DNA of 28,072 nt, taken from the NCBI GenBank assembly GCA_943704415.1, contig CALSCO010001097.1:1-28072 (forward strand), in the 5' to 3' direction. How positions within the stretch are numbered: the stretch's first letter is position 1; each line of letters starts with the position of its first letter. Below are positions 6,147-28,072 of the stretch, in pieces. Position numbers and translations under genes: made by a program. Below the pieces are notes generated by a model that was given only the letters and a program-made list of their open reading frames with translations, did not search any database and was not told the origin of the DNA. Origin of the DNA: Parvularia atlantis (lineage: Eukaryota > Opisthokonta > Rotosphaerida).

Positions 6147-7787
6147 TCAGTGGCCCTTGCGGGCGACGGCGTAGTTGTCGACGAACCACTGCACCGACTG
6201 GTTGATGCCTGCGCGCGTGCAGTCTCAGCCATGCTCGCGCCACACGCCCGGCCGGCACTGCGACGCGCACCCTCCTGCAGCGGCGTAAACTTAAAGTTGG
6301 GCAGGTACCGGCGCAGCTTGGCGTTGCTCGCGGTCTTCTTGAACTGCCCGTCGGCCTTGGTCGTGTCAAACTGGCGCGCAGCGCCGCGCCGCGTCAGTGC
6401 CGTGCACATCGCACGCCGTCGCCGTGGCGCGCACCGTCAGGTTGCCGGTAAAGTTCATGGCCCGCGCGATCGCCTCGGCCGCCTCCTTGATCGACACCTC
6501 GTCCTCCTCGCCAACTGCGCGCCCACCCTGCTCAGCGGCTGGTGAGCACACACGCACTGACGCACCCGACAGGATGATCGGGTCGACCTCGGTGTACTCG
6601 CGCAGCGTCCAGATGAACAGCTTGGCGAGGTCGTGCGAGAAGATGAACTGGCGCAGCGGCTTGCCCGTGCCCATCACCGTGAAGTCCTCGCCGCGCTCTG
6701 CATAACACGCCGACGCTGCCGCTCAGCCAGCCGCGCACGCATGTGGCCCCGCGCACGCACGCTTGGCCAGGTACAGCTTGTGAATTAGGCCTGGGATGAC
6801 GTGGCTGTCCTGCAGGTCGTAGTTGTCGTGCGGGCCTGCACGGCGCGGCTGCTCAGTCCACACACCGAGCGCCCCGCTCGGCCACGGCGCACCGTAGACG
6901 TTGGTCGGGATGACCGACGTGAAGTTGCGCCCGTGCTGCACGCGGTACGCCCTGCACGCGCACACATGAGCCGTGTTCCGCGTTGGCGGAGCACGCACTT
7001 GTTCATCACGTCGATCATGCGCTTGGCGTGCGAGTAGCCAAAGTTGGAGTCGTGCGGCGGGCTGCGCTGAAAGTTCAGCCGCCGACGACCATCGATCATC
7101 CGAATGCGCGCACCCGTTGTGAATCATCGTCTCGTCGATCGGGTACGTCGTCTTGTCCGGGAAGATGCACGTCGACAGGCACGAGACGACCTTGACGCAC
7201 TGCGCGTCTCGTGAGCCGCCGGCCTTGATGCGCCGCGCCGCACGAGACATACGTCGTGCTCGTGTGCGCACGCCAGCACGTTGTCGTTGATGGCCATGTT
7301 GACGCGCAGGAAGTCGAGGTTGAGGCGCATGTTGCGGAAGAGCCCGCCGACCTGCCCCTGTCGTCGTCAGCGCCGCACGTCTCTCTGCGTCACCGCACCA
7401 TTGCCGCGAGGTGGATCACGTGTGTCGGGCGGTACTTGTCGAAGATGCGCTTCGTGTCCTCGAGCTTGCTGCGGCGGCCCGTCAGCACGGCGCACGTGCC
7501 ACACGTGAAAGGATCCCGCGCGCGCGCGCGCGCCTCAGGTCGCCGTCCTTGGACGTGAGGAAGATCCACGTCTCGCCCTCGCGCTTGCGGAACGCGCCGG
7601 TGTCGTGCTCGATCACGTGCTCGATCGCTGCTCCGCCGCCGCGTTCAGCTCGCACGTGACGCCGCGCGCCGCACACCGCACGCACCCTTGCCGACGAGGC
7701 CCGACCCGCCCGTGACGAGGATGCGCGCCGCCTGCGACGCGACGGCGAGTGAGCGGCATACGGCGGCGAAGGGGCCACGCGCACCAT
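6147..7787 (-). CDS. GFUS: GDP-L-fucose synthase (epimerase-reductase)
   Basis: This cytosolic NADPH-dependent enzyme converts GDP-4-keto-6-deoxymannose to GDP-L-fucose, the donor for fucosylation. Thirteen exons encode 322 aa (human about 321): 7787-7785, 7731-7686, 7627-7534, 7468-7399, 7351-7253, 7199-7114, 7061-6999, 6951-6893, 6835-6761, 6697-6566, 6514-6435, 6370-6271, 6208-6147. Visible motifs are the Rossmann loop [23 protein letters not shown], the serine region [15 protein letters not shown], the YxxxK catalytic pair in [10 protein letters not shown] (7022-7036), [13 protein letters not shown], the histidine in [10 protein letters not shown], and [14 protein letters not shown]. The ATG sits alone in exon 1, followed by an intron (7732-7784). 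The intron at 7469-7533 begins with GC. Exon joins match the human protein without gaps, so the call is very firm. Confidence 0.97.
7469..7533 (-). other. GC-AG intron in GFUS
   Basis: The exon ends ...GACCTGAG and the intron starts GCGCGCGCGC; the acceptor is GCCGCAG. The splice must fall here in phase 2, because the joined segment ([20 protein letters not shown]) has exactly the human spacing between the SKD and [10 protein letters not shown] motifs. No GT in the right phase is available. The donor is a CG dinucleotide run (7517-7533). Confidence 0.85.
7732..7784 (-). other. Intron directly after the GFUS start codon
   Basis: The minus strand reads ATG, then GTGCGCGTGG...CGTCGCAG, then [15 protein letters not shown] in a new frame. 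The human protein begins at the equivalent point just before RILVTGGSG, so the initiator codon is the whole coding content of exon 1. The ATG read without splicing enters a frame that does not encode the Rossmann motif. Confidence 0.75.
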
Positions 7788-7890
7788 CGTCTCCGATTGG
7801 TGCAAACGGTCCCGCCAATCACTTTCTTCAGCGTCACGGCAGCGGATTGGTCTGATGGGCAGTGACGACACGCAGCGATCTGGCCAATCG
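7788..7890. promoter_or_regulatory. Divergent promoter GFUS/FIRRM with four CCAAT boxes
   Basis: Between the GFUS start (minus) and the first FIRRM codons (plus), CCAAT pentamers occur at 7796-7800 (reverse), 7815-7819 (forward), 7846-7850 (reverse) and 7884-7888 (forward). Their orientations alternate at 19, 31 and 38 bp. CCAAT boxes bind the conserved NF-Y/HAP trimer, and multiple copies are typical of shared promoters of dividing-cell genes. A TTCGCGCC E2F-like word follows near 7896. No TATA box is seen. Confidence 0.6.
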
Positions 7891-27219: not shown

Positions 27220-27289
27220 CAAAATCATAATACATCATCTTTTGTTTGTTCCTGTGCGGCAGACTGTACAGCCAGCGCGTCGTCGTGCG
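27220..27289. other. Convergent gap TRPC4AP / USP37-like
   Basis: This 70-bp spacer between stop codons begins with an AT-rich patch (AAAATCATAATACATCATC, 27221-27239), the most A/T-rich run at any 3' end here and the best candidate for a polyadenylation region. Confidence 0.65.
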
Positions 27290-28072
27290 TCACACGCCCG
27301 CGTCGACGTCGTGCACAAAGAAGTACATGTAGGACGACCGCTGCCGTAGCTGCACGAGCTGCGCAAGCGGGCCGACGTCGCTCATGACCGAGTCGTTGTA
27401 GCAGCGCCACGTGCGCGCCTCGGCGTCCCACACGTCGCAGATGTAGTGCCCTGCGGATGCGGCCCCTCAGCCACGCGCGGCAGGCAGGCACATGCAGCAC
27501 GCTCACCGTTCGACGCGCCGATGCCCTGGTGGCTGACGACCGCCTGCAGCCGGTAGTTGCAGAACGCGCGCACGGTCGCGAGCGACGCCTTGTCGAACGC
27601 GGTCGCAGCGGCCGCAGCGGCGTCGGCCGCCGCCTCCCGCTTGCGCTGGTTGTCTGCTCGTGCGCTGTGTGTGAGCATCGGCTGATCACGGCTGGCGGCC
27701 GGCGGCCCACGCACGCGCGTGCAGGCTCAGCGCGAGAGCGAGCTTGATGTCCTCGTCGTCGCCGTCGTCGTCGTTGTGTGCGGCGGTGTTAGGCGCTAGC
27801 TCGGCCATGTCCGTGTCGAGCTCGGCTTCGGCCTCGGCCTCCGCCAGGCTGCGCGACAGCGCCCACTGCAGCTGCTCGTCCTCGCTCTGCGGCACGTCGC
27901 GTGACACAGCAGCACCGCGCAAGCCAACGCCTGCACCATCTGGTCGAGCGGCTTGAGCGGCTTTGGCTCGGTGAACTCGAGCTTCCTGCGCGCACGGCTC
28001 GGGTGCGGCGACGACGGCGGCGACGACGACGGCCTGCACGGGTCAGGAGCGGACGCGCACCGGGCGGGGGGG
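27290..28072 (-). CDS. USP37-like ubiquitin-specific protease, C-terminal part
   Basis: This is the 3' end of a deubiquitinase gene; the catalytic Cys box lies beyond the right edge. Exons: from the edge to about 28061 (uncertain), 28033-27931, 27886-27715, 27653-27507, 27450-27290. Two ubiquitin-interacting motifs occur: DEQLQWALSRSLAEAE and DEDIKLALALSLHA. They are followed by the USP His box YRLQAVVSHQGIGASNGHYI, then DVWD, YND and YMYFFVHDVD before the stop. Human USP37 likewise carries UIMs inserted in its catalytic domain and the segment YRLISVVSHIG...GHYISDVYD. The catalytic His is in SNGHYI. A basic-acidic segment RRKLEFTEPKPLKPLDQM precedes the UIMs. The intron at 27887 begins with GC; the one near 28034 would be only 27 nt, so the right edge may be unreliable. 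Confidence 0.8.
27887..27930 (-). other. GC-AG intron in USP37-like gene
   Basis: The exon ends CAGATGGTGCAG; the intron starts GCGTTGGCTT, has a TGTCAC word and ends GCCGCAG (44 nt). It joins KPLDQMVQ to SEDEQLQWALS in phase 0. Reading through without splicing would lose the frame before the first UIM. Confidence 0.65.

Follow-up and report, generated by a model that had tools for sequence, protein, structure and literature searches.

Frequent candidate GC-AG introns in a GC-rich, apparently opisthokont genome

Genes and introns of the window

The whole stretch of DNA analysed here (the window, 28,072 nucleotides, contig C275) comes from a 16.25-Mb assembly made up of 616 contigs. Its GC content is 69.3%, that of 20 stretches of other contigs being 67-71% (mean 69.4%), and genes are closely packed and intron-rich, with introns of about 57 nt. 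Besides the genes treated below for their introns (GFUS, SPT16, DDX47, a USP-like gene and those named FIRRM and PROPPIN in a preliminary description of this DNA), the window holds on the minus strand (13553-16319) a gene whose product combines a kinase domain with two C1 domains and resembles protein kinase D, and on the plus strand (23789-27219) one for a DUF3689 protein (PF12463), presumably of the TRPC4AP family. At the start of the window the gene models conflict: a run admitting only GT donors placed one gene on the plus strand (1-2325) and another on the minus strand (2362-6123), later runs stretched the minus-strand gene to 1618, and the GC calls inside this extension are doubtful.

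Introns were modelled with a purpose-written gene finder that uses codon usage, matrices for donor, branch and acceptor, and intron length and content. It was trained on the window and 20 ten-kb stretches (228 kb), the latter sampled systematically by taking the initial 10 kb from contigs 10, 40 ... 580 (20 of the 616 contigs). In the GT-only run, which gave 923 introns, the donor was (A/C)G^GTGCG(C/T), the branch CT(G/C)AC and the acceptor GCAG. In the 16-donor run every dinucleotide received equal starting weight, re-estimated across eight rounds (EM). An AG acceptor was assumed in every run retained, since a run freeing 16 donors and 16 acceptors together did not settle sensibly (AG 709 and GC 219 of 1052 acceptors) and was set aside.

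The 16-donor model placed 134 introns in the window (112 GT, 14 GC and 8 other), close to the 127 introns, 11 of them GC, counted in the preliminary description; a two-donor model, allowing GT or GC, gave 115 GT and 19 GC introns, or 101 and 8 at a posterior of at least 0.9. All 11 places listed in that description do have a GC donor and an AG acceptor, and AG precedes ten of these donors, the one at 17150 being preceded by CTG. According to the two-donor model, the source of the posteriors given below for single introns of the window, eight of the 11 are strong (at least 0.9) and two moderate (about 0.6), and at 27887-27930 a GT donor is the better choice. The 16-donor model recovered nine of the 11 as GC, with coordinates unchanged.

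In GFUS (GDP-L-fucose synthase, minus strand) the GC-AG intron at 7469-7533 has a posterior of 0.993 and a junction, DLS^KLEDT, that is ungapped against human GFUS chains. The gene named FIRRM (plus strand) has such introns at 8072-8128 (1.000) and 10331-10385 (0.989) and a possible third at 9721-9781 (0.608; rival 9727-9781, 0.382), and the gene named PROPPIN (minus strand) has one at 12417-12485 (0.998). DDX47 (minus strand) contributes one at 22055-22120 (1.000), its junction ungapped, and there is a possible one near its 3' end at 21672-21727 (0.598). The homology support that had been claimed for DDX47 22055 and GFUS 7469 holds, both junctions being ungapped against sequences of solved structures.

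Three further GC-AG introns lie in SPT16 (plus strand). The junction of 17150-17213 (1.000), AAKDL^KTMG, is ungapped in the best SPT16 alignment, with the human alignment gapped four residues away, and that of 19041-19094 (0.909) is less certain, with a one-residue gap 1-2 residues from it. The third, 17813-17879, has a posterior of 0.997 in the two-donor model; the 16-donor model put its donor at 17816 as AC (0.917), a reading that would add one residue which is gapped in SPT16 alignments, and homology therefore favours 17813. In the USP-like gene (minus strand) an intron at 27887-27936 with a GT donor (GTGCAG) is more likely (0.965) than the GC reading at 27887-27930 (0.035), the two being 6 nt apart, so that the reading frame cannot decide. 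Weak extra GC calls (0.53-0.77, 16-donor model) comprise four in the doubtful gene at 1618-6123 and one in SPT16 at 19185-19238.

Donor frequencies across the genome sample

In the window and the 20 stretches together, the 16-donor run modelled 945 introns, of which 807 begin with GT, 95 with GC and 43 with one of ten other dinucleotides, the commonest of these accounting for at most 9. At a posterior of at least 0.95 there remain 688 GT, 59 GC and 4 others (four dinucleotides, one each). Without the window, the 811 introns of the 20 stretches divide into 695 GT, 81 GC and 35 for all other dinucleotides combined, and GC/(GC+GT) is 10.4% (bootstrap 8.7-12.4%). The preliminary description had called for a genome-wide tabulation of donors; run on these 20 sampled stretches, it gave GC introns in all of them, 2-8 per stretch.

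Two-donor runs need more caution. The GT-GC run called 113 GC introns, with false ones among them to judge from decoy runs, each of which drew 25-86 decoy introns (CG 86, CT 66, CC 56). These runs indicate that two-donor counts are inflated, and we have therefore relied on the 16-donor run, on posterior cut-offs and on sequence context that was not scored. At a posterior of at least 0.9, GC accounts for 74 of 815 introns in the two-donor model (9.1%). GC introns have a median length of 61 nt and GT introns of 57 nt (p=0.005). As far as DNA can tell, GC donors seem to make up about 8-10% of introns and to be spread genome-wide, and the pattern looks real.

Donor context, homology and splicing machinery

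With only the donor dinucleotide scored, 27 GC and 489 GT donors reached a posterior of at least 0.9, and A at +3 was present in 59% of the former and 4% of the latter (p=6.5e-14). The corresponding figures were 67% and 42% for A at -2 (p=0.016), 78% and 85% for C at +4, and 81% and 89% for G at +5. Watson-Crick matches to U1 outside +2 were 4.67 at GC and 3.85 at GT donors (p=1e-4, context unscored), the U1 duplex being weaker overall at GC donors (-2.8 vs -4.3 kcal/mol). When exon positions were left unscored, AG preceded 42 of 72 GC donors and 204 of 710 GT donors at a posterior of at least 0.9 (p=8.7e-7), or 38 of 64 and 180 of 614 minus the window. The extra exon pairing at GC donors that the preliminary description had put forward is thus borne out; it had overlooked the stronger compensation, which lies inside the intron at +3A. 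False sites or errors would not carry such unscored donor context.

Behind the donor, the branch (C-T-G/C-A-C, about 21 nt from the acceptor) and the CAG acceptor are near-identical in 74 GC and 741 GT introns (posterior at least 0.9). Three features of U2-type GC-AG introns are found here: GC and AG ends, branch and acceptor signals resembling those of the GT-AG introns, and stronger U1 pairing outside +2; branches CTGAC/CTCAC and donors GTGCG or GCACG are at odds with the U12 consensus.

Homology was also examined outside the window, in six proteins with 12 GC junctions: acetyl-CoA synthetase (6), a KIF15-like kinesin (2), eL20, Rpt3, aspartate aminotransferase and eIF3i (1 each). All 12 show no gap within five residues in the alignments shown, a figure that is not an unbiased rate, as the proteins were hand-picked as recognisable among 47 genes, and the first kinesin junction sits in a poorly conserved region. 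Five of the 12 have an in-frame GT no more than 9 nt away (offsets -6, -6, +9, -3 and +9), so for these a gap of one to three residues decides between the donors. The acetyl-CoA synthetase gene (6889-9773 of L021) has 16 introns, six of them GC-AG.

The U1 snRNA was searched for, the preliminary description having proposed a check of this gene for compensating changes. The sole match above the family cut-off (C477:706-869, 88 bits) has a canonical 5' end, AUACUUACCUGG, and the only other match is partial (13 bits); among the 41 of 149 first-look candidates that were scored there was no U1 altered at the base opposite +2. The branch-pairing stretch of U2 is the usual GUAGUA and the U6 box is the canonical ACAGAGA.

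The same check had been proposed for U1C. The U1C candidate (L030, minus strand), second-best among the zf-U1 matches of the genome, aligns with zf-U1 at all 38 positions (45.8 bits), but only once a GC-AG intron (coordinates 1555-1606 of the reverse complement, posterior 0.997) is taken out of the zinc finger, the best single exon giving 18.7 bits over 19 positions. AAGGCGC is common to both ends of this intron, so that the position of the cut is uncertain by a few bases, and no alternative position yields a GT donor. The candidate reads NTGFKH where human U1C has CSGRKH, with one differing residue at what we take to be an RNA-contacting position. The best genomic zf-U1 match, in L029, was rejected as U1C, since by eye it looks like a different zinc-finger protein resembling WBP4.

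Explanations and comparison with other lineages

We consider it likely that these are ordinary U2-type introns with C at +2, recognised by an unchanged U1 through compensatory pairing, their share raised by the GC-rich composition. In such a mechanism +2C would mispair with U1, whose 5' end is unchanged, and the lost pair would be paid back elsewhere, chiefly at +3A and -2A, +3A forming a normal U1 pair in place of the G-U wobble of GT donors. Drift of the GT donors towards GTGCG would have left them with a +3 wobble, and the restoration of +3A at GC donors would reflect selection on pairing to canonical U1. A composition of about 69% GC would push T to C at +2 wherever the remaining positions of the site tolerate the change, and the GC share, about ten times the usual, would be owed to this extreme composition. 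Base composition is, we infer, the most likely cause of the high share. It is insufficient alone, given the 2.7% of GC-AG introns at 64.1% GC in Micromonas RCC299 and the weak correlation among species other than the most GC-rich ones that are reported in the excerpts available of PMC3033335. Splicing at these GC junctions in the cell is in turn suggested by the sequence evidence set out above.

An origin of the GC introns in annotation artefacts or errors of sequencing appears extremely unlikely. It is true that DNA was the sole basis for calling intron ends and that decoy donors also draw calls, but GC far outnumbers every other non-GT dinucleotide (95 vs at most 9), +3A, -2A and +5G are present at GC donors even when unscored, and homology fits. 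A compensating U1 change opposite +2, by which the lineage would read GC as well as GT, is equally improbable: a search that scored 41 of 149 candidates leaves room for a divergent second copy, but the sole U1 above the cut-off is canonical, the other match is weak and partial, and GC donors compensate against canonical U1, which would be needless with an altered one. Of the lineage-level change in splice-site use that the preliminary description had envisaged, the genome-wide shift in donor use stands; a U1 change is unsupported.

It is also unlikely, if less so, that a change in a protein (U1C, Prp8 or similar) relaxed the check on +2. NTGFKH in the U1C candidate, set against the human sequence, would speak for it; against it, zf-U1 is matched at every position, and GC donors remain a minority with strong compensation, as under ordinary discrimination. 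Maintenance of GC donors by selection for regulated or alternative splicing, as proposed for mammals in the excerpted texts of PMC2490688 and PMC7242645, seems very doubtful. The GC intron within the zinc finger of the U1C candidate could in principle act as a feedback switch, but GC introns occur in all 20 stretches and in housekeeping genes, acetyl-CoA synthetase having six. Ordinary U2-type introns with compensatory pairing to an unchanged U1 thus remain the preferred explanation.

High GC-AG content in GC-rich genomes is already known, and what is new here is the lineage that carries such a share. EF-1A contains the segment PWFKGWKKLDKKGAEVKGVTLVEAL, which we take to be an opisthokont-type insertion, and the kinase with two C1 domains and the DUF3689 protein would presumably fit a relative of animals. 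According to excerpts of PMC3033335, GC-AG introns reach 39.6% in Aureococcus anophagefferens (69.5% GC), 22.2% in Micromonas pusilla (65.9%) and 7.7% in Chlorella sp.; these algae likewise combine high genomic GC with a GC-AG share far above 1%, whereas the present genome is apparently that of an opisthokont, and one profile search for the chlorophyll-binding protein PF00504 did not find it. In the parts seen of PMC7072748, GT-AG introns average 98.3% in animals and 98.7% in fungi, which agrees with the figure of about 1% GC-AG for most eukaryotes in the preliminary description; genome GC is positively linked to splice-site GC, and the fungus Meyerozyma guilliermondii has about 6.67% major non-canonical sites. 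A literature search of partial coverage found no opisthokont with a comparable GC-AG share. A non-photosynthetic, apparently opisthokont lineage would be added to the small set of GC-rich genomes in which GC-AG introns are common, its relatives, animals and fungi, averaging about 1-1.5% non-canonical donors.

In mammalian GC-AG introns GC donors are likewise offset by a better consensus elsewhere (excerpts of PMC2490688 and PMC7242645), the rest of the donor being closer to consensus, and mutational bias has been argued not to explain the accumulation of GC (PMC2490688, in part). Here, in contrast, the frequency is about tenfold that in mammals, both donor classes retain +4C and GC introns are slightly longer, those of mammals being shorter according to the portion available of PMC7242645. 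The canonical state of U1, U2 and the U6 box argues that composition and compensation could convert as many as a tenth of donors to GC, with no need for new RNA machinery. Gene prediction restricted to GT would break many genes in this genome, the U1C candidate included.

The conserved C at +4, present in about 85% of donors of both classes (the GTGCG core), is a question that this genome makes testable. C at +4 pairs with neither canonical U1 nor the U6 box. A changed U6 as its cause was rejected, the U6 box being ACAGAGA, as was a missing METTL16, a Methyltransf_10 gene with the NPPF motif being present; a word search of the available text of two papers on METTL16 and donor classes gave no relevant passage on GC donors, algae or +4C. 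Because +4C reaches about 85% despite U1, the ACAGAGA of U6 and a METTL16-family enzyme, which would favour +4A, donor recognition might have shifted from RNA pairing to protein contacts, making +2C tolerable, with the U1C gene, its zinc finger split by a GC-AG intron, in a feedback loop, although we give this idea a low probability.

The same donor core, GTGCG, and CTGAC branch are published for Micromonas (AG^GTGCGT with NCTGAC, excerpts of PMC3879977) and Ostreococcus (GTGCGTG with GACTGACG, excerpts of PMC2483917), and the combination is therefore convergent, not unique. Unlike those algae, the present genome belongs to an unrelated lineage and is intron-dense (134 modelled introns in 28 kb), with the branch about 21 nt from the acceptor as opposed to 43-52.

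The only U6 gene found (L026 1501-1662, contig C142:8820-8981) has a 48-nt insert in the catalytic AGC stretch (GAUUA^...^GCAUGG), which has neither an AG end nor a CTGAC branch and is unlike the introns of this genome. A T run lies downstream of the gene and CATAAG about 25 nt upstream, and one stretch at this gene resembles what we take to be a Pol III B box.
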